A stretch of DNA of 64,000 nt, taken from the NCBI RefSeq assembly GCF_008327685.1, contig NZ_BDDE01000031.1, positions 1-64,000 of the forward strand. Reading direction: 5' to 3'. Below the pieces are notes generated by a model that ran no database searches, was not told the origin of the DNA, and saw only the letters and a program-made list of their open reading frames with translations. This DNA is from Actinomadura sp. K4S16. Lineage in GTDB: Bacteria; Actinomycetota; Actinomycetes; Streptosporangiales; Streptosporangiaceae. Of this stretch, positions 669-45,092 are shown piece after piece. The stretch's first letter is position 1, and every line of letters begins with the position of its first letter. A program made the translations under genes and the position numbers.

Positions 669-1595
669 TCAGGTTCGGGTGGCGAGGGTCTCGGGCTTGC
701 GGGTGCGTGCTACCTCGGGGGTGCGGGCGTCCAAACTGATCTTGGCGAGGGCGTGGCGGCCGAGGTCGGCTGTTCCAGAGTGCTTGGTCTCTTCCTGGGT
801 CAGGTAGACGGTCAGGTCGGGGAAGGTGACCAGCCATCCGCCATCGCCGGCTGTGGCGGTTCGGAAATCGCGTGGGTCGCGCGGGGCGGCCAGTCTTTCC
901 TTGGCGAAGTCTGTCGCGGAGTCGGCCTCGCGGGTTCCGGCGGGGACGAAGGTGCCGTTGCGGAAGTAGACCGTGGTCTGGGTCCGATCACCAGCGGCCA
1001 GGGCGGCCTCGGACACGGTGGCCGGCGGCTCCGGGGGGCGATGGGTGAGCGTGCGTCGTGTGCTCCGCCGCCGGATCCGCCAGATCTTGGCCACCGCCCA
1101 GATGAGGAGCACCGGCCAGAGGACCAGCAGGGCCACGAGCAGGCCGGTTCCGGGCGCGTCCACCTTGATTCGCAGTGCCTCGTTGGAGCGGTCGCACGCG
1201 ACCGCGACGTAGTCGGTGGCAGGGGCCTGGAACGCCCCGACCCATCGGTATCCCTTGATCTCCGCGGAGTCGCCGGAGTGCCGGACGCGGTCCAGCGTCA
1301 GCGGATAGGTGCCGTTCTGCCCGGCCAGCGCGCAGGATCCCGGGTCGGCGGCACTTCCGACGACGTGGACGCGGTAACGCAGACCCTCGTCCACCCAGAG
1401 CACCGGACGGCTGTCGTTGGGGACGTTTCCGGACCGGACGGCGTCGACCGTGCTCGCGGTGAGGAGTGCGTGGTGCGTCCCCCAGAAGAGCGCGGTGAGC
1501 AAGGCGAGCAGGACCACGGGCCAAGCCGGAATCAGATACGCGCGCCAGGACGTGGCGAAGGGCACCCGATACCGATATGCAACCTTTTTCGGCAC
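669..1595 (-). CDS. Two-helix membrane protein of unknown function
   Basis: A 308-residue protein that I do not recognise as a named family. The N-terminus is basic, followed by a hydrophobic helix at about residues 20-42. An extracytoplasmic-looking domain of roughly 105 residues with two Cys comes next, then a second helix at about 150-172, a basic Arg-rich stretch and a cytoplasmic tail of about 130 residues. The layout resembles actinobacterial DUF3592-like membrane proteins, but that is only an impression. The GTG start is supported by a TACAAT box ending 6 bases upstream, which suggests a leaderless transcript. The gene is divergent from the M16-like protease with a 41-base gap, so the two may be co-regulated. 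Confidence 0.65.
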   Translation of the reverse strand: MPKKVAYRYRVPFATSWRAYLIPAWPVVLLALLTALFWGTHHALLTASTVDAVRSGNVPNDSRPVLWVDEGLRYRVHVVGSAADPGSCALAGQNGTYPLTLDRVRHSGDSAEIKGYRWVGAFQAPATDYVAVACDRSNEALRIKVDAPGTGLLVALLVLWPVLLIWAVAKIWRIRRRSTRRTLTHRPPEPPATVSEAALAAGDRTQTTVYFRNGTFVPAGTREADSATDFAKERLAAPRDPRDFRTATAGDGGWLVTFPDLTVYLTQEETKHSGTADLGRHALAKISLDARTPEVARTRKPETLATRT

Positions 1596-1636: not shown

Positions 1637-4132
1637 TTGGACGTTACACGTACCGAGATCGACGGCGTTCCCGTGTTCTGGAGCAAGGGCGCGCCGGGCG
1701 ATGACGACCATCGAGCGGCGCTGGTGTTCCGCGTGGGGCGGGCCGACGAGACCCTGGCAAGGGGCGGGCTCACCCACCTGGTGGAGCATCTGGCGCTGCA
1801 TGCGGTCGGCGATTCCGACTATCACCACAACGGCGTCGTGAACGCCGTGACCACCATGTTAGTCACCCATGGCGAGCCCGCGGAGATCGCTTCATTTCTG
1901 ACGACCGTGTGCGAATCGCTGTGCGCGCTTCCCATGGATCGCCTGGAGGCGGAGAAGAACATCCTGCGGACCGAGGCCGAGGGACGCGACGCAGGGCTGC
2001 AAGGCCAGCTGCTGCTGTGGCGCTACGGTGCCGCCACCTATGGCCTGCCCGCCTACGACGAGCACGGGCTGACCGCCTTAACCCCCGAGGACGTCCAGGA
2101 GTGGGCGGCGCGCTGGTTCACCAGGAACAACGCGGCACTGGCGATCGTCGGCGGCCCGCCGCCCGAGGGGCTGACGCTGCCGCTTCCCGAGGGCGAACGG
2201 CGGCCGGTCCCGGAACCGACGAGCGCCCTGCCCCGGACACCCGCCTACTTCAACGCCGACGTCAAGGGTGTCGCGCTGAGCGCGATCGTGCCGCGCTCGT
2301 CCGCCGCCCGGGTCTACGCCGACGTCCTCGGCCGCCGCCTTCACCGGGTGCTGCGGAGGGACAATGCGCTGAGCTACACGACGAGCGTCGACTTCTCATC
2401 GAGCACCGGGGACGGTGTGGAACTGCTCGCGTTCGCGGACGGTCTGGCCGAGGTGCGCCCGGAACTCGCGGAGCGGTTCTGCGGGGAGATCGGGCGCATC
2501 GCGGCCGAGCCTGTCGACGCGGCCGAACTCGCGGAGGTACTCGCGGCGCGACGCGCTCGCACAGGCTCCGACGAGGCCCGCGCCTCGCAGCCGATGAGGC
2601 GGTGCCTTGCCGAACTGCTGGGAGCCCCGCTGCTGACGACGGACGAGGCCCTGGCGGAGCTCGACGCGGTGCGGCCCGAGGACGTCCAGGAGGTCGGCCG
2701 CGCCGTGCTGGACACCGCGCTCCTGATGCTTCCGCACGGCGAAGAGCCGCAAGGGGCGCGTTTCGCCCCGGCCCCGACCCGTTCCATGGTCGCGGTCGAG
2801 GGCCGCGTCCACACCCGAGCCGGCGATGTCCAGCAGGGGCTGATCGTCGGCCCCGAGGGGGTCACCTCGCTGACCGGCCCGATCATGGCGACCGTGCGCT
2901 TCGACCAGTGCGCCGCGGTGTTCGCGTGGCCGGACGGGGCACGCGCGCTGATCGGCCTGGACGGCGTGACGGTCGGGGTCGAGCCGAACCTCTGGCGCTC
3001 CGGCACGGCCGCCGTCGCGGAGATCGACCGGCACGCCCCCGCCGAGCTGGTCGTCCGCAAGCCGGCCCGCCCCGACGACCGCGTCCTGTCTCCTGGCGAC
3101 GACGCCTCCTCGGCCGATGAGGAGGAGGGCGGCTCGGCGTCGGCCGGCGTGGTGGCCGCGCTCTTCGGGCTGCCCGGCAAGATCAGGTCGCGGCGGCGAC
3201 GGCCGGCCTGGCGGGACGAGGCGCTGGCGGCGGCGCTGCCGAAGGTGCGCGGCGGCGACCTGCGCGCGGGCCTGGAACTGCTGGCACGCACCCGGGACGA
3301 CGCCGAGACCCGCAGCCTCTACGTGGAGGGCCTCACCGACGCCGCGCTCGGACAGGCCGAGCGGCTCACGCGACTGTACGCGGACGATCCCGACGACCCG
3401 GACCTGTGCCTGTGGCTTGGCGCGACCCGTGTCGCGGAGGCGTGGGAGGCGCGCAGCGCCCAACGCGCGGAGTACGTCGACGCGGAACGGTTCGGCCGGT
3501 TCTGGCGGCTGCTCGCCCTCGCGGGCCCGCCGCTCTACCGTGCCGCCGAGCTGCTGCCCGCGGACCCCGTCCCCTGGAACAGCCTCCAGTCGTACGGCAT
3601 CGGCATGCAGCTCGGACGGGACGAACTGGACCGGATCTGGCGTGAGCTGACGGAGCGCGACCCGTCCCTCTACGCGGGCCATATCTCCCGTTCCCAGGCA
3701 TTGTGCAAGAAGTGGTGGGGTTCGGAGGCCGAGGTGCTGGACTTCGCCGAGGCGGTCGTCGCCGCGGCCGAGCCGGGCGACCCGGTGACCGCGGTACTGG
3801 CGGTGGCGCACCTGGAGATCGGCGGTGAGATCGGCACCTGGGACGACCTGAACCGCTACCTGGCCCGGCCCTCGGTGCACGCCGCGCTCGTGGCGGCCGC
3901 CGACCGGTGGCTCGCCGGGGACCGGCCGCATCCGAGGAACCTGGAGGCCCACCACTTCTTCGGTGCGGTGTTCTACCGGGCCGGCGACCACGACCGGGCC
4001 CGGCGCCATCTCAGCCGGGTCGGCCGCACCAGCCCGCCCGAACGCGCGTGGGGGTACGCGCCCGACGCAGACCGGCTACTGGTCCAGGCCCGGCGGGACG
4101 TCCGCGCGAAGCGTGAGGAGCCGCCGCACTAA
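1637..4132 (+). CDS. M16 (insulinase/pitrilysin)-like metalloprotease fused to a PH-like and a helical C-terminal region
   Basis: 831 residues. The TTG start is chosen because GGAGAGGGAG lies 5 bases upstream and because it clears the divergent gene; an in-frame ATG at 1577 would overlap that gene and lacks a Shine-Dalgarno site. Residues 1-180 look like an M16 catalytic half, with the inverted zinc motif H47-L-V-E50-H51 and a probable third ligand Glu near 113 in an I-L-R-T-E context. A second, degenerate M16-like half follows to about 390. Residues ~405-495 look beta-rich, possibly PH/GRAM-like. After an acidic linker and a basic patch, residues ~540-820 are helical and TPR/DUF4034-like. 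Ordinary bacterial M16 peptidases end near 430 residues, so the tail is unusual. No signal peptide is seen, so it is probably cytoplasmic. Confidence 0.7.
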   Translation: MDVTRTEIDGVPVFWSKGAPGDDDHRAALVFRVGRADETLARGGLTHLVEHLALHAVGDSDYHHNGVVNAVTTMLVTHGEPAEIASFLTTVCESLCALPMDRLEAEKNILRTEAEGRDAGLQGQLLLWRYGAATYGLPAYDEHGLTALTPEDVQEWAARWFTRNNAALAIVGGPPPEGLTLPLPEGERRPVPEPTSALPRTPAYFNADVKGVALSAIVPRSSAARVYADVLGRRLHRVLRRDNALSYTTSVDFSSSTGDGVELLAFADGLAEVRPELAERFCGEIGRIAAEPVDAAELAEVLAARRARTGSDEARASQPMRRCLAELLGAPLLTTDEALAELDAVRPEDVQEVGRAVLDTALLMLPHGEEPQGARFAPAPTRSMVAVEGRVHTRAGDVQQGLIVGPEGVTSLTGPIMATVRFDQCAAVFAWPDGARALIGLDGVTVGVEPNLWRSGTAAVAEIDRHAPAELVVRKPARPDDRVLSPGDDASSADEEEGGSASAGVVAALFGLPGKIRSRRRRPAWRDEALAAALPKVRGGDLRAGLELLARTRDDAETRSLYVEGLTDAALGQAERLTRLYADDPDDPDLCLWLGATRVAEAWEARSAQRAEYVDAERFGRFWRLLALAGPPLYRAAELLPADPVPWNSLQSYGIGMQLGRDELDRIWRELTERDPSLYAGHISRSQALCKKWWGSEAEVLDFAEAVVAAAEPGDPVTAVLAVAHLEIGGEIGTWDDLNRYLARPSVHAALVAAADRWLAGDRPHPRNLEAHHFFGAVFYRAGDHDRARRHLSRVGRTSPPERAWGYAPDADRLLVQARRDVRAKREEPPH

Positions 4133-4641
4133 GGGCGCAGGCCGGGGCCGTCCTGTGCGAGGGCCTTCGCATAGGCGGACAGCGAGCGGTTGTACTGCGG
4201 GAGGTGGCGGGAGAGCGCGCCGAGCGCGAGCCCGGCCGCCTCCCGCTCGCGTCCGACGTCGGTGAGCGCGAGCGCGAGGAACGCGGTGATGGCGTCGTCG
4301 AGCTCGTCCGAGCCGGCCTCGCGTTCCGCGGTCAGCAGCGCGACGCTCTCGTCGGCCCGGCCGAGGTTGCGGAGCGTGCTGGCGTACTGGATCACGGCCT
4401 GCCTCCGCCGCGGTCCGGAAAGCCCTGCGGCGAAGGCCCGCCGGTAGTGGTCGGCGGCCTCCGCCTCGTGGTCGAGGGCGTCGTGCGCGGAGGCCAGCTC
4501 GTACTCGGCGACGGCGTCGCCGGGCGGGAGCTCGCCGGTCAGGGCTTCGACCTTGCCGAGGAAGTCCTCGGGGGTGTGGTCGTCGAAGGCGTCCCATAGT
4601 GCGGCCATGCGCGCTTCCCAGTCGGGCGCGGGGTTGATCAT
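4129..4641 (-). CDS. Tetratricopeptide-repeat protein
   Basis: A 170-residue, all-helical protein with TPR-like repeats. The pattern of small residues (A-x-Y-E-L-A-S-A-H, A-x-x-H-Y-R-R-A) recurs from about residue 40 to 160, and it resembles the short TPR proteins common in actinobacteria. It is probably a protein-protein interaction module; no partner can be named. The gene converges with the M16-like gene, and the two stop codons overlap by 4 bases. TAGGCT ends 7 bases before the ATG, with no Shine-Dalgarno site, so a leaderless start is likely even though a P450 gene lies 16 bases upstream on the same strand. Confidence 0.75.
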   Translation of the reverse strand: MINPAPDWEARMAALWDAFDDHTPEDFLGKVEALTGELPPGDAVAEYELASAHDALDHEAEAADHYRRAFAAGLSGPRRRQAVIQYASTLRNLGRADESVALLTAEREAGSDELDDAITAFLALALTDVGREREAAGLALGALSRHLPQYNRSLSAYAKALAQDGPGLRP

Positions 4642-6466: not shown

Positions 6467-7492
6467 ATGCGTAACACACGACGTCTCGCACTCGCGGCCG
6501 TGGCCGCGTTTCCCCTCATGGCCGCGCTGCCGGCGGCGTCCGCCGCGGACTCCGGCGCGACCGCCGCCGGGACCGTCTTCTACCCCAACCCCGTCCAACA
6601 GCTCGGGGACCAGTCCCTCACCGACGCGAAGGACGCCGACTACGCCGCCCTCGCGCCCGCCTACCGGCAGGTCACCCTCACCGACCTCGACGGGTCCGGG
6701 TCGCTCACCGGACGGTACGCGCGGGTCAAGAGCGAGACCGGCAAGGCCGCCCGGATCGAGAACGGCGCGCTGCCCGCCTACCATCGCGACTCCGACCAGT
6801 TCGAGCAGGTGATGGGCTACTACTGGGTGACGACCGCGCAGCGGTACCTGCAGCACCTCGGGTTCGGGTCCGGGCTCCGCCCCGTGAACCAGCGGCAGAT
6901 CGAAGTGCGGATCAACCAGTACGGCGGCGACAACTCCTTCTTCCGCCCCGACAAGGCGAACATCACGCTCGGCAAGGGCGGGATCGACGACGCCGAGGAC
7001 GCCGAGGTGGTCATCCACGAGTACGGCCACTCCGTGCAGGACGGCCAGGTCACCGGGTTCGGCACGAACCTGGAGTCCGGATCGATCGGGGAGGCGTTCG
7101 GCGACTACCTGGCAGTGGCGGTCACCAGCTGGGCGACCGGCACGCCGACCAAGACCCCGGAGCCGTGCGTCGCCGACTGGGACTCGGTGTCCTACACGTC
7201 CGGACCCACGCACTGCCTGCGGAGGCTGGACGGGACGAAGCACTACCCCGAGGACGTCCGCGGTGAGGTCCACGCCGACGGCGAGATCTGGTCGCGGGCC
7301 CTCTGGGACATCCGGCAGTCGCTCGGCGACACCCAGGCGAGCACGCTGATCGTCGAGGCGCAGTTCGCGTTCGCGCCGGACACCTCGTTCAAGGCCGCCG
7401 CCGAGGCGACCGTCGCCGCCGCCCAGCGCCTCTACGGAGCGAAGGCGGCGAAGGCGGCACAGGCGGCGTTCGCCGCGCGGGGCATCCTGTGA
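6467..7492 (+). CDS. Secreted zinc metalloprotease, M36/M4-like (HExxH)
   Basis: 341 residues with a classical Sec signal peptide: a basic R-R, a hydrophobic core and a cleavage-like A-S-A near residue 26. The catalytic motif H184-E-Y-G-H188 is followed about 20 residues later by G-S-I-G-E209-A-F-G-D-Y, the gluzincin third-ligand Glu. The helix layout and C-terminal Ala-rich end fit the fungalysin (M36) side of the gluzincins rather than full-length thermolysin, and there is no long propeptide. It is probably exported and acts on extracellular protein. There is no clear SD before the ATG, and TACCGT 6 bases upstream suggests a leaderless mRNA. Confidence 0.8.
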   Translation: MRNTRRLALAAVAAFPLMAALPAASAADSGATAAGTVFYPNPVQQLGDQSLTDAKDADYAALAPAYRQVTLTDLDGSGSLTGRYARVKSETGKAARIENGALPAYHRDSDQFEQVMGYYWVTTAQRYLQHLGFGSGLRPVNQRQIEVRINQYGGDNSFFRPDKANITLGKGGIDDAEDAEVVIHEYGHSVQDGQVTGFGTNLESGSIGEAFGDYLAVAVTSWATGTPTKTPEPCVADWDSVSYTSGPTHCLRRLDGTKHYPEDVRGEVHADGEIWSRALWDIRQSLGDTQASTLIVEAQFAFAPDTSFKAAAEATVAAAQRLYGAKAAKAAQAAFAARGIL

Positions 7493-39382: not shown

Positions 39383-40222
39383 TCAGTCCCACCAGAACGA
39401 CCAGTTGGTCTTGCCGCGGATCTCCTCGGCGTATCCGGCGAGGGTGCCGGGCCCCTGGAACAGGATGTCGGGGCAGAACGCCCAGTGCTCGGCCGCGACG
39501 TGGACGGCGTGTCGGGTGCTCACGGGCGGCGCGGCGACGCTGAGCTCCATGGTGTTGAAGCCGAGCGCGACGACGCGGGCGCCGAAGCGGTCCTCCCAGC
39601 TGCGCAGGACGGCCGCGAGCGGCGCCGTCCACTCGTTGTGGTTCAGCGCGCCCTGCCAGCCGACGGCGGCGATCGCGTCGGCGCTCCGCTCCACCGCGAC
39701 CAGGCCGAGCGGCAGGCCGCGGGCGGCGAGGGCGCGGGCGTGCCGGTCGGCCATGGCGTCGGGGTCGTCGACCGGGACGCCGGCGGGCGCGGGGCCGGGG
39801 CAGTGCCGCCCGTACGGGGCGAGATCGCCGTGGTCGTCGTCGGCGGCCTGCTCCGCCCAGTCCGCCCACACCTCGTACATGAACGCGTGGGGGTGGTAGT
39901 TGCCGATCTCGGCGACCGGCTCGGGGGCGATCTGGCCCGCCGCCCAGGGCTGGTCGGACTCGTCCATGAGCAGGGGCCACAGCCCCGACCGGGCGTGCTC
40001 GGCGCGGACCCGGGCCCACAGCTCGCCGCGGACCGGCTCGTCGCTCAGCCAGAACGCGGGCCGCATGAGGAGCTGCCGCTGCGGGTACCCGGGGTCGGGC
40101 CAGACCAGGTCCCCTTCGGGCAGCGGAACCGACAGCGTCCGGCCGGTCGCGCCCTCCTCGGCGCCGCCGTCGAACAGCTGCGGCAGGTCGCCCGGCAGGG
40201 GCCGGACCTCCACATCATCCAT
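39383..40222 (-). CDS. DUF4253 protein
   Basis: 279 residues, soluble and acidic. The C-terminal ~110 residues match DUF4253: an F-G-A-R-V-V-A-L-G-F-N-T-M-E-L-S-V-A strand, A-E-H-W-A-F-C-P-D, and the terminal W-S-F-W-W-D. The family is of unknown function, often in loci with immunity-like or SUKH proteins. No toxin gene is seen here. About 110 bases of plain intergenic sequence separate it from the FtsX operon. Confidence 0.82.
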   Translation of the reverse strand: MDDVEVRPLPGDLPQLFDGGAEEGATGRTLSVPLPEGDLVWPDPGYPQRQLLMRPAFWLSDEPVRGELWARVRAEHARSGLWPLLMDESDQPWAAGQIAPEPVAEIGNYHPHAFMYEVWADWAEQAADDDHGDLAPYGRHCPGPAPAGVPVDDPDAMADRHARALAARGLPLGLVAVERSADAIAAVGWQGALNHNEWTAPLAAVLRSWEDRFGARVVALGFNTMELSVAAPPVSTRHAVHVAAEHWAFCPDILFQGPGTLAGYAEEIRGKTNWSFWWD

Positions 40223-40332
40223 TTCACGCCGTTCCGGTACAGAGCATGCCAGTGGCGATCGTAACGGCGGTAGGGGCCGTCCGGGGGACGAGCCGTGCGG
40301 TTCGGTCGTCCGGGCGGGCGGCCCCGGCGGGC

Positions 40333-40503
40333 TCAGGGCTCGCGGCGGCCGCGGAGCAGCAGGTCGATCACGACGGCGGCCGCCGCGAGGCCGGTGACGG
40401 CGCTGACGGCGATCTGGACCCAGCCGTCGCCGAGGACCGCGTTCGACAGGACGTTCACGGCGACCAGGACGACGATCAGGGTCCAGCGGGTGGAGTTGCT
40501 CAT
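40333..40503 (-). CDS. 56-residue two-helix membrane protein in the FtsX operon
   Basis: A very small protein with two predicted membrane helices (about 6-24 and 29-50) and a basic tail R-G-R-R-E-P. Its ATG overlaps the stop of the FtsX-type permease (ATGA), so it is the last gene of a three-gene operon and translationally coupled. It could be an accessory subunit of the transporter; no family is recognised. Confidence 0.7.
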   Translation of the reverse strand: MSNSTRWTLIVVLVAVNVLSNAVLGDGWVQIAVSAVTGLAAAAVVIDLLLRGRREP

Positions 40504-42959
40504 GGGAGCGCCTTTCGGTGAGTGGGGGACTTCAGGAGAGCGAGGGAGGGGGTGCGCCGGCGCAGCACCGCGCGCGCCGGGAGCAGGATCGCGGCGGCGC
40601 CTGACCCGGCGACGCCGAGGAGGATCACCGCGCAGGCGAGCGGCGGGACGGAGGGCAGCGGCAGGCCGGTGACGCGGGCCGCGAAGGCCGTCAGCGTCAC
40701 CGCGGCGATGAGGGTCCCGGTCGCGATGCCCGTGCCGAGGACGATCGCGGCCTCCAGCCGCAGCATCCGCAGGACCTGGCGGCGGGTCGCGCCGACCAGG
40801 CGCAGCAGCGCGAACTCGCGGCGGCGCGCCGCCGTCGCCAGCGCCAGCGTGGTGACGAGGCCGATGAGGACGAACCCGGTGATCGCGGCGACGACCAGCC
40901 GGCTGACGAACCCCTGGAGCCTGACCTCGTGGGAGAGGCCCTCCTGGAAGCCGGCGGGCGTGAGCACCCGGGTTCCGGCGTAGGCGGCGGTGACCGCGCC
41001 CAGGTCCGCCCTGCCGCGGACGAGGACGCGGTCGTCGAGCGGCGAGGAGGAGTGCGCGGCCACGACGTCGCGGGGAAGGAGCACGTCGCCGAACCCGAGG
41101 CCCCGGTCGTAGACGGCGACGACGCGCGCCCGGATCCGCGTCCCGTCGCCGAGCCACAGGGCCGTCGTCGAGCCGACGCGCAGGCCGCCTGCGACGTCCC
41201 GGCTGAGCGCGACGGCGTCGCCGTGCAGGTCGCCCAGCCGGCCGGAGGACACGCCCGGGTCCAGGGTTACGGCGGCGTCCGCGCCGACGCCGGCGCCGTT
41301 CAGCGAGCGCAGGTTCTTCTCGCCCAGCTCCCTGACCGCCATGACGGCGGTGGTGCGCTTGACCGGCGTCGCGGCCGTCACGCCGGGGACGCGGCGCACC
41401 GCCTCGGCGACCCCGCGCGGGAGGCCGGGGCCCGCCGCCACGACGATCCGGTCGGCGCGGTTCCCGTCCTCCGCCTGCGTCCGCGCGGCCTGGACGACGG
41501 TGGACTGGGCGAAGAGCTGGACGCCGGCGAACGCGACGGCCAGGGCGACCGGGGTGATCAGCGATCCGGCACGGAGGGCGGCGGTGCCGGCCGCGTGCTG
41601 GGCCATCCGCCCGGCCACCGGCGAGACGGCCCGGGCGGCGCGGCCCAGGACCCGGTTCCCGGCCCGCGCCACCAGCGGCCCGAGGAAGGCCGTGGCGATG
41701 ATGAGCGAGATGACCAGGCCGCCGATCGAGGCGCTGGCGGCGGGCCCGGTGGCGCCGGCGGAGAACCCGAGCGCGTTCAGGCCGAGGACGAGGAAGGCCC
41801 CGCCGGTGACCACGCGCCAGCGGGGCAGGCGCGGGTTCTCGGCGGCGGCCTCGCCCAGCGCCTCGACGGGCCGGATCCGCGACAGCCGCAGCGAGGCGAG
41901 GAACGCGGTCGCGGTGGCGGCGAGCAACGTGACGGCGACCGCCGCGAGCGCGGGCAGCGGACCGAGCGACAGCCCGAAGCCGTCCGGAAGGACGCCCTTG
42001 TGCACCATCGCGGCGTGCAGCGCGGCACCCGCCCCGAGCGACAGCGCCCCGCCGGCGAGCGCGGCCGGCGCCCCGATCCGCAGCGTCTCGCGCACGAGGC
42101 GCGCCCGCACCTGGCCCGGCGTCGCGCCGACCGCCCGCAGCAGCGCGAACTCGCGGGCGCGTTCCCGCACCGACAGCACGATCAGGCCGCCGACGACCAC
42201 GAGCGCCGTCATCACGGCGAGGCCGCCGAACGACGCGGACAGCTCGACGATGTCGGGGCGCGCGGCGGCGACGGCCGGGTCCTCGGCGTCGCCGCGCGCG
42301 GCGCCGGTGGAGACGGAGAGGCCGGGCACGGCCTTGCGGAGCGCCTCCTCGTCGGGGTCGCCGAGCACCGCGAGGGCGTCGGCGAGGCCGGGGCGCCCGT
42401 CGAGGGCCGCGGCCGTCGCCGTGCTGAAGAACGCCGCGGCGGGACCGCCGGCGACGAGCCCGGACACGCGGTAGGGGCGGGGCGGCCCGTCGACCTGGAT
42501 GCGGACCACCGCCCCCGGCGCGACGCCCGGCGACCGGCTCAGCACGACCTCGTCCGGCGCCTGCGGGGCGCGGCCCGCGCTCAGCAGGTAGGGCCGGAGC
42601 GCCGCCGACTCCCAGCCGTGCCCCGTCACCGGCCCTCCCGAGGAGAGCAGCGCGGGGAACGACACGTCGGCGACCACGTCCCGCACGCCCGGAACGGCCC
42701 GCAGCCTCGCGGTCGCCGCGACCGGGACGGGGGCGCGCTCGGTCAGCGGCCGGCTCTGCTCCTCCGGCGCGTCCGCGAACCTCCCCAACCGCTCCGTGAC
42801 GCTCCCGGGGCCGGTCACGACCGCGGCGGCGGCGCCGAACCGCTCGACCGGCGCGTGCGCCCGGAGCGCCGACTCCAGCAGCACCCCGCACGCCCCGAGG
42901 AGCACCGCCGCGAACGCCAGCGCGACGAAGATCCCGGCGAACGCCCCCCGGCTCCTCAC
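40500..42959 (-). CDS. FtsX/MacB-like ABC transporter permease
   Basis: 819 residues. One N-terminal helix, a large extracytoplasmic domain, then two FtsX-type membrane blocks (about 230-350 and 690-810), each with the cytoplasmic motif R-E-F-A-L-L-R-x-V-G-A-T. This duplicated-FtsX layout is typical of actinobacterial MacB/LolCDE-like mechanotransmission transporters that respond to peptides or the envelope. GTG start overlapping the ATPase stop (GTGA). Confidence 0.92.
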   Translation of the reverse strand: MRSRGAFAGIFVALAFAAVLLGACGVLLESALRAHAPVERFGAAAAVVTGPGSVTERLGRFADAPEEQSRPLTERAPVPVAATARLRAVPGVRDVVADVSFPALLSSGGPVTGHGWESAALRPYLLSAGRAPQAPDEVVLSRSPGVAPGAVVRIQVDGPPRPYRVSGLVAGGPAAAFFSTATAAALDGRPGLADALAVLGDPDEEALRKAVPGLSVSTGAARGDAEDPAVAAARPDIVELSASFGGLAVMTALVVVGGLIVLSVRERAREFALLRAVGATPGQVRARLVRETLRIGAPAALAGGALSLGAGAALHAAMVHKGVLPDGFGLSLGPLPALAAVAVTLLAATATAFLASLRLSRIRPVEALGEAAAENPRLPRWRVVTGGAFLVLGLNALGFSAGATGPAASASIGGLVISLIIATAFLGPLVARAGNRVLGRAARAVSPVAGRMAQHAAGTAALRAGSLITPVALAVAFAGVQLFAQSTVVQAARTQAEDGNRADRIVVAAGPGLPRGVAEAVRRVPGVTAATPVKRTTAVMAVRELGEKNLRSLNGAGVGADAAVTLDPGVSSGRLGDLHGDAVALSRDVAGGLRVGSTTALWLGDGTRIRARVVAVYDRGLGFGDVLLPRDVVAAHSSSPLDDRVLVRGRADLGAVTAAYAGTRVLTPAGFQEGLSHEVRLQGFVSRLVVAAITGFVLIGLVTTLALATAARRREFALLRLVGATRRQVLRMLRLEAAIVLGTGIATGTLIAAVTLTAFAARVTGLPLPSVPPLACAVILLGVAGSGAAAILLPARAVLRRRTPSLALLKSPTHRKALP

Positions 42960-43687
42960 AGCGACTCCCAGCGGGACATGACGGCGGACGCGGTCGGGGC
43001 GGCCAGTTCGTCGACGATGCGGCCGCGGCTGAGGAACAGCACCGAGTCGGCCCACGCGGCGGCCGCCGGGTCGTGGGTGACCAGGACGATCGTCTGGCCG
43101 GTCAGGTCGGCGGCCTCGCGCAGCATCCGCATGACGTCGCGGGCGGTGCGGGGGTCGAGGGCACCGGTCGGCTCGTCGGCGAAGACGACCTCCGGACGGG
43201 TGACCAGCGCGCGGGCGAGGGCGGCGCGCTGCTGCTGCCCGCCCGACAGCTCGGACGGGCGGTGCCGGAGCCGGTCGGCGAGCCCCACCCTCCGGACGAT
43301 CTCCTCGAGCCGGGCCGGGTCGGGCTCGGCGCCGCCGAGCCGCAGCGGGAGCGTGATGTTCTGCTCGACGTCCATGGACGGGATCAGGTTGAAGGCCTGG
43401 AACACGAACCCGATCCGCTCGCGGCGCAGCCGCGTCCGCTTCGCCTCGCCGAGCCGCCCGAGGTCCACCCCGCCGATCCGGACCGTGCCCCCGCTCGGGC
43501 GGTCGAGCCCGGACGCGCAGTGCAGGAACGTGCTCTTGCCCGATCCCGAGGGCCCCATCACCGCGGTGAACCCGCCGCGGCGGAACGTCCAGGTGACGCC
43601 GTCCAGGGCCCGCACGGCCCCATAGGTCTTGGTGACCGCGTCCAGGCTTACCGCCTCCGCGGTGGCCTCGGCCGTCATCGTGGTCAT
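42956..43687 (-). CDS. LolD/MacB-type ABC transporter ATPase
   Basis: 243 residues. Walker A G-P-S-G-S-G-K-S near 45, F-Q-A-F-N-L-I-P near 95, signature L-S-G-G-Q-Q-Q-R near 148, Walker B V-V-F-A-D-E-P-T and V-T-H-D. It powers the FtsX-type permease. GGAGGGG precedes the ATG by 6 bases. It is the first gene of the leftward operon and divergent from a histidine kinase across a 26-bp palindrome. Confidence 0.93.
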   Translation of the reverse strand: MTTMTAEATAEAVSLDAVTKTYGAVRALDGVTWTFRRGGFTAVMGPSGSGKSTFLHCASGLDRPSGGTVRIGGVDLGRLGEAKRTRLRRERIGFVFQAFNLIPSMDVEQNITLPLRLGGAEPDPARLEEIVRRVGLADRLRHRPSELSGGQQQRAALARALVTRPEVVFADEPTGALDPRTARDVMRMLREAADLTGQTIVLVTHDPAAAAWADSVLFLSRGRIVDELAAPTASAVMSRWESL

Positions 43688-43772
43688 GGTTCCCCTCCGT
43701 GGGATATCGCCTCTCACCTGGACGAACCTAGGTTCCGGAGGGGGTCGGGCACATGGGCGCGCACTCCCGAAA

Positions 43773-43798
43773 CGGTGGTGTAGCGGGCTACACCACCG
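43773..43798. promoter_or_regulatory. 26-bp palindromic operator candidate
   Basis: CGGTGGTGTAGC and GCTACACCACCG form perfect 12-base arms around GG, midway between the ABC operon and the two-component genes. The core GTGTAG...CTACAC fits a dimeric NarL/LuxR-type response regulator site. It lies about 75-85 bases from both start codons. Confidence 0.7.
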
Positions 43799-43871
43799 GT
43801 CCGGGGGCAGGCCCGGGTGCGAGGGGCGCCGGCGTCGCTTACGGTGTGCTGCGAGGTGACGGCGAGGTGAC

Positions 43872-45092
43872 ATGAACAGAGCTCTGAGACGCAGCGCGGA
43901 GGCGACCGGCGAGCTGGTCGGAGCCCTGCGCACGGGCCTGCCCGCGATGGCCGGGCTCGTCCCGCTCACGGCGGTGCTCGTCCTGTCGTTCCTCGTGCTG
44001 CCGTGGCTGCCGTCGGCCGTGAAGCCCCTGCGGGCGCTCGCGAACGCCGAACGGCGGCGGGCCGGACGCGTCCTCGGCCGCGAGATCCCCGAGCCGTACC
44101 GCCCGTCCTCAGGCGACGGCCTCGGCGAGGCGCGCCGCCTGCTGCGGTCGCCGTCCACCTGGCGGGACGCGGCCTGGATGGCGGTGCACGGCCTCACCGC
44201 CCTGGTCGCGGCGGTGGTCGCGGTCGCGGTGTGGCCGGCCATCCCGTTCACGCTCTCGCTGCCGCTGTGGTGGTGGGCGGCGCCCGAGGGCTCCCAGTCG
44301 GCGTTCATCACCCTGGACAGCTGGCCCAAGGCGCTGACGATGCCGTTCGTGCAGGGGGCGTTCGACCTGGGCATCCTGCTGTGGCTGGTACCGAGGCTCG
44401 TGCGGTGGCAGGCCAGGCTCGCCGAGGTCCTGCTGGGGCCCACCCGGCGCACCAGCCTCGCCGAGCGGGTCGAGGAGCTGACCGAGACCCGCGCCGAGGC
44501 CCTGGAGGCGCACGGCGCCGAGCTGCGCCGCATCGAGCGCGACCTGCACGACGGCACGCAGGCCCAGCTCGTCGCCGCCGCCCTGCGGCTCGGGCTCGCC
44601 GACCGCCGCTTCGACGCCGACCCGGACGCGGCCCGGACGCTGTTCCTGGAGGCCAGGGACGGCGTCGAGGAGGCCCTCACGCAGCTGCGGACGGTGATCC
44701 GCGGCATCTACCCGCCGATCCTGTCCGACCGCGGCCTGGCGGGGGCGCTGCGGGCGCTCGCCGCCGGGCAGCCGATCCCCGTCGACCTGCACGTCGAGGA
44801 CGGCCGGGCGCCCGCCGCCGTCGAGGCCGCCGCCTACTTCGTCGTGGCCGAGGCCCTCACCAACATCGCCAAGCACAGCGGCGCGCGGCACGGCGAGATC
44901 GTCCTCCGCCGCGAACCCGCCCGCCTCACGATCACCGTGCGGGATGATGGCAAGGGCGGGGCCGATCCGGACCGGGGCAGCGGCCTCGCGGGCATCCGCC
45001 GCCGGGTGGCGGCGCTCGACGGGACGACCCGCCTCGACAGCCCCGACGGGGGAGGGACGACGCTTCAGGTGGAGCTGCCGTGCGGATCGTGA
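43872..45092 (+). CDS. Sensor histidine kinase (HisKA_3/NarL type)
   Basis: 406 residues. A membrane helix at about 25-48 and a two- or three-helix block at about 98-175 form the sensor part. A coiled segment leads to the phosphoacceptor helix, R-I-E-R-D-L-H-D-G-T-Q near residue 224, then the N-box E-A-L-T-N-I-A-K-H near 330 and the G-box D-D-G-K-G-G. The short extracytoplasmic loops suggest sensing within or near the membrane. GAGGTGA precedes the ATG. The next gene, a response regulator, overlaps by 13 bases. Confidence 0.92.
   Translation: MNRALRRSAEATGELVGALRTGLPAMAGLVPLTAVLVLSFLVLPWLPSAVKPLRALANAERRRAGRVLGREIPEPYRPSSGDGLGEARRLLRSPSTWRDAAWMAVHGLTALVAAVVAVAVWPAIPFTLSLPLWWWAAPEGSQSAFITLDSWPKALTMPFVQGAFDLGILLWLVPRLVRWQARLAEVLLGPTRRTSLAERVEELTETRAEALEAHGAELRRIERDLHDGTQAQLVAAALRLGLADRRFDADPDAARTLFLEARDGVEEALTQLRTVIRGIYPPILSDRGLAGALRALAAGQPIPVDLHVEDGRAPAAVEAAAYFVVAEALTNIAKHSGARHGEIVLRREPARLTITVRDDGKGGADPDRGSGLAGIRRRVAALDGTTRLDSPDGGGTTLQVELPCGS

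Follow-up and report, generated by a model that had tools for sequence, protein, structure and literature searches.

The gene at positions 1637 to 4132 on the forward strand of the window, by which we mean the whole 64,000-nucleotide stretch of Actinomadura sp. K4S16 DNA that was analyzed, is a genuine single-gene fusion that encodes an 831-aa protein consisting of an M16B-type peptidase, a PH-like domain and an alpha-solenoid. This arrangement is real and recurrent and apparently undescribed, and the M16B protease itself is of a known type; the "undescribed system" of the original prediction is too strong a term for an ordinary M16B-type protease in a new domain arrangement. As the protease and solenoid modules are fused in the soil bacteria of the genus Actinomadura and encoded next to each other in Streptomyces, a Rosetta-stone link, gene organization indicates that the two almost certainly act together.

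Domain architecture and active site of the fusion protein

The gene was delineated by its open reading frame, an alignment of 17 fusions and an AlphaFold2 model. It starts with a TTG codon at position 1637, which is preceded by GGAGAGGGAG, and the N-terminus MDVTRTEIDGVPVFW of the protein is kept among relatives. In its own genome of 9.65 Mb the fusion is present as a single copy. A sequencing or annotation artefact was ruled out and its chance is negligible, because the fusion recurs in 18 genomes with identity down to 45%. Pfam recognized Peptidase_M16_C (E 2.3e-7) and left weak traces only in the remaining regions, and NCBIfam gave no match for the fusion, the divergent membrane gene upstream (termed MEM) or the stand-alone relatives apart from one match at chance level. 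An anti-phage defence gene was also ruled out: PADLOC recognized neither the fusion nor MEM, and the convergent TPR gene gave no more than weak TPR matches.

The AlphaFold2 model of the fusion, built on 71 aligned rows, reached a mean pLDDT of 94.1 and a pTM of 0.91. Residues 1-377 (1637..2767, + strand) form the M16B peptidase half with the subdomains D1 and D2, which in addition to the Pfam match is supported by a profile comparison against the PDB (E 1.7e-14). The best fold match of this half is the Bacillus halodurans peptidase 3hdi (Z 33.6 over 365 residues, rmsd 2.8 A), and further solved matches include TTHA1264; 3eoq and 7v4y reached Z > 32. According to the models, residues 378-831 comprise a PH-like domain followed by an all-helical solenoid and contain no M16 fold. 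The tail predicted alone gave the same picture (pLDDT 93.5), and a second ordinary M16 domain in the tail was ruled out by both the full-length and the tail-only model. In fold searches the whole model recovered the M16 part only and the tail recovered the solenoid only.

The PH-like domain spans residues 390-466 (2804..3034, + strand). Its assignment rests on the order of the elements, which in two confident models fits a seven-stranded barrel with a C-terminal helix as cap, and on one weak bPH_6 match (E 0.008) among the 39 members of the PH-like alignment; the window protein itself had no Pfam bPH match over the cut-off. A disordered linker of low confidence (approximately residues 480-502, 3074..3142, + strand, pLDDT 51-63), the length of which varies among relatives, connects it to the solenoid at residues 503-821 (3143..4099, + strand). 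The latter is predicted to be a TPR-class alpha-solenoid and a remote relative of DUF4034 (PF13226). Its fold matches are TPR solenoids with a best VIA-align Z of 13.2, a value within the range common to helical repeats, and Foldseek gave a best E of 1e-3, with LbcA (7rqf) and NlpI (1xnf) at E 0.05-0.08. The Pfam TPR cut-off was not reached (TPR_19, 21.5 bits vs 25). The likeness to DUF4034 comes from the family member L139, which exceeds the cut-off of PF13226 (24.2 vs 21.3 bits); the window protein and most relatives had no DUF4034 match, and a search for this family in 13 Streptomyces genomes found none.

The architecture of M16, PH-like and TPR/DUF4034-like parts that had been predicted from the letters of this DNA is thus borne out by the models, the fold matches and the Pfam match of L139, and the beta-rich block and long helical region of that prediction correspond to the seven-strand-plus-helix PH-like domain and the solenoid. 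Likewise, structure prediction of the tail, proposed as a check, returned a PH-like domain and a solenoid in place of an M16 domain. The claim of about 440 extra residues without M16 character holds for residues 378-831 as such, but the beta block is common to a wider family of M16+PH proteins described below, and what is peculiar to the fusion therefore amounts to only about 320 residues.

The HxxEH motif (HLVEH, residues 47-51) aligns with the solved M16B chains, as does the distal Glu. E106 and E113, which are seven residues apart, are invariant in 17 of 17 aligned fusions, and E113, which lies 62 residues past H51, coincides with the third zinc ligand; the intact HxxEH and plausible third Glu that had been predicted are therefore both present. 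In the solved bacterial M16B enzymes reviewed, the distance from HxxEH to Glu is 72-83 (PMC12731061), and the short distance in the fusion results from a loss of length of about 12-15 residues in the segment that follows HxxEH. Y247 is invariant and R240 is present in more than 90% of the aligned fusions (Trp in fusion L093); both fit the R/Y pair of M16 enzymes and align with that of 3hdi. Across 22 stand-alone relatives there is no variation at HxxEH, either Glu, R or Y. These residues argue for a zinc peptidase, and since HxxEH/E113 and the R/Y pair reside on one chain, the protein is most likely a homodimer like BHP of Bacillus halodurans.

Distribution of the fusion and of adjacent protease and solenoid genes

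Of the 65 genomes of the genus, 16 contain the full fusion, and so do two genomes of a related genus (G080 and G165), with identities of 45-93%; a single-sequence search of genome contigs recovered only two close relatives, both Actinomadura. Residues 1-486 without the solenoid correspond to a separate M16+PH family in other actinobacteria, which is sparse across the phylum (about 5 strong matches in 296 genomes). The solenoid alone is a widespread stand-alone family. In Actinomadura and several relatives it lies in a conserved locus (L129, L131-L137) with a PAS/GAF-SpoIIE phosphatase, a sigma-70 factor, YaaA and a GyrB-type topoisomerase, and in G105 and G108 the solenoid is present there in two tandem copies. 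L139 (5597-7492, genome G619 of the genus Streptomyces) is another fusion involving this family, a 631-aa protein in which the solenoid is joined to a further domain and a TM hairpin at the C-terminus.

The genomic context of some genes may retain traces of how the fusion arose. In L090 and L091 it is preceded by genes for an ABC nucleoside-type transporter, a cytidine deaminase and a pyrimidine phosphorylase, and the same nucleoside-salvage genes precede a 503-aa M16+PH gene without solenoid in G298 (L104), which belongs to another family. An adenosine deaminase gene follows the M16+PH gene in G298 and is found further downstream in L090. This shared context of a fused and an unfused gene is consistent with an M16+PH gene as ancestor of the fusion, to which the solenoid was added.

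In Streptomyces, where M16+PH genes occur in about 14 of 121 genomes, a solenoid gene is located directly upstream on the same strand of 15 of the 16 intact M16+PH genes. The gap is -4 to +87 bp, often with an overlap of 4 bp, and the pairs reside in several unrelated neighborhoods. Elsewhere the two genes are divergently oriented in G204 and G186 and lie in tandem, with the solenoid upstream, in G100. Among two frameshifted protease copies the solenoid gene is retained next to L148 and missing next to L147, and M16+PH genes without a neighboring solenoid are L098-L101, L104, L112 and L114-L119. In a tree of the solenoid, for which the stand-alone rows were picked by similarity to the fusion, the fused set is separated from the adjacent-gene set and placed among the stand-alone solenoids (SH-aLRT 98-99). 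A single origin of the pairing was rejected by an AU test when the long-branch row L121 was left out (p 0.002), but not when it was included (p 0.11). The fused and adjacent pairings therefore probably arose independently, as far as these alignments indicate.

Most of the adjacent-gene M16+PH proteins carry a C-terminal TM segment or hairpin, which is found in none of the fusions. The hairpin in most stand-alone relatives would also suit a peptidasome for general peptide clearance at the inner membrane face, in which the PH-like domain and the solenoid serve location or assembly only, and short unfolded peptides are indeed substrates of M16 enzymes (PMC12731061). Nevertheless, the gene is sparse and accessory (about 14 of 121 Streptomyces and 16 of 65 genomes of its own genus), and a general housekeeping role is therefore unlikely. 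Moreover, three further M16 matches in the genome of the window exceed the Pfam cut-off, and two of them are separated by about 1 kb on a single contig. We consider this explanation doubtful.

The divergent membrane gene and the convergent TPR gene

A probable partner of the fusion is the divergently oriented gene MEM (669..1595, - strand), which encodes a protein of 308 aa with two predicted TM segments (~19-37 and ~151-169), a middle domain of about 110 aa with two Cys and a tail of about 130 aa. It flanks the fusion in 13 of the 16 fusion-bearing genomes of the genus vs one fragment (G022) in the other 49, which corresponds to a hypergeometric p of about 5e-10 if kinship among the genomes is ignored. 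The identity of MEM beside fusions ranges from 90% down to about 35%, and no sigma-70-like promoter was found in the 41-bp gap between both genes. Decayed remnants of the fusion were detected in G032, G040 and G027, and together with the MEM fragment in G022 (L162, L163, L164, L165) they suggest repeated loss of the unit.

The predicted two-TM topology and a linkage that spans at least four different neighborhoods would also fit MEM as a regulator, the outer domain of which senses an envelope signal and the tail of which acts on the PH-like domain or solenoid to switch the protease. Against this stand five fusion loci without MEM (G063, G037 and G018 of the genus, G080 and G165 of the related genus) and the result that MEM matched no family in Pfam and NCBIfam, including any known sensor family, and we regard such a role as unlikely.

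The convergent gene (4129..4641, - strand) encodes a TPR_5 protein of 170 aa (PF12688, E 8.9e-41) and is unlikely to belong to the unit. Its occurrence is confined to the locus of the window gene and those of the five closest relatives (74-93% identity), and it is missing at the other fusion loci read; other flanking genes are also common to some of the loci that carry it. Due to this restriction to the closest relatives it was rejected as a conserved member of the unit and most likely represents inherited synteny. From the predicted three-gene neighborhood, the association with MEM therefore stands, whereas the TPR_5 gene drops out.

Proposed mechanism and relation to known systems

The fusion protein is best pictured as a cytosolic M16B-type zinc peptidase with a built-in adaptor. 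The architecture, the active-site residues and the gene association are observed, and for this picture as a whole we see the chances as evenly divided. Two copies would pair into the usual M16 clamshell with the PH-like domain packed beside the catalytic half, and the C-terminal solenoid would recruit a substrate or a regulatory or membrane partner and present it to the chamber. For CtpA and Prc it is established that the TPR adaptors LbcA and NlpI deliver substrates (PMC11021448), and by analogy to these unrelated proteases the solenoid probably brings in the substrate of the protease. The parallel is one of function only: a TPR solenoid partners the protease in each case, but Prc and CtpA are extracytoplasmic S41 enzymes, the adaptors of which are separate lipoproteins, whereas the fusion is an M16 zinc enzyme with a solenoid that is part of the chain or encoded by the neighboring gene. 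Most proteases of the Streptomyces relatives have their own C-terminal TM hairpin, with the solenoid as separate adjacent gene. In Actinomadura the solenoid takes the position of the hairpin, and MEM may couple the fusion to the membrane in trans. A more far-reaching version assumes that MEM senses the envelope and, by way of the PH-like domain and the fused solenoid, opens the cytosolic M16 chamber to one specific protein, and that the protease-adaptor-membrane trio was assembled independently in Actinomadura (fused solenoid, MEM in trans) and Streptomyces (separate solenoid, TM hairpin in cis); this we find rather improbable.

With the known M16B peptidases (BHP 3hdi, TTHA1264/1265, SPH2681/2682 and PA0371/0372) the fusion shares the D1+D2 fold over residues 1-377 (Z 31-34), HxxEH, the distal Glu and the R/Y pair, and as in the homodimeric BHP both motifs are on one chain. 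In contrast to the solved M16B enzymes it has a shorter segment after HxxEH and the added PH-like domain and 320-residue solenoid. FusC and PqqL (~900 aa) are also large single-chain bacterial M16 enzymes, but they are composed of two M16 halves, whereas the PH-like domain and solenoid take the place of the second half in the fusion. The searched open-access literature contained no paper on DUF4034 and none that describes an M16 protein fused to a TPR or PH-like part.

The genus Actinomadura is rich in natural products, which speaks for an unclustered RiPP leader peptidase, the solenoid of which would bind the precursor or its modifying enzyme. Class III lanthipeptides are matured by bacterial M16B pairs that are encoded outside their clusters (PMC8960859), and for cacaoidin a single-chain M16 enzyme with both domains has been proposed (PMC8068269). 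Cao15, LxmP1-LxmP2 and Bcn-gP1-gP2 are bacterial M16 enzymes like the fusion, and Cao15 also combines an active and an inactive M16 domain within one chain, but they are tied to RiPP maturation, and no PH-like or solenoid part is reported for any of them. Furthermore, neither the TM hairpin nor the PH-like domain is reported for these peptidases, and the minority of neighboring genes that were scanned comprised housekeeping or salvage genes and no RiPP maturation family. It is thus improbable that the fusion belongs to this group.

Physiological substrates are known for few bacterial M16B peptidases (PMC12731061, PMC8960859). A partner that is fused to the protease in one genus and encoded next to it in another provides a direct handle, and the solenoid could be used as bait.

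Elsewhere in the window, an open reading frame of about 330 aa at 6500-7492 with a signal-peptide-like start and a HEYGH zinc-binding motif probably encodes a secreted metallopeptidase, as judged from these motifs. The block at 40001-44000 has the highest GC content of the window (0.769) and a marked AT skew (0.147), and it also contains a tRNA-Ser gene (42819-42913).
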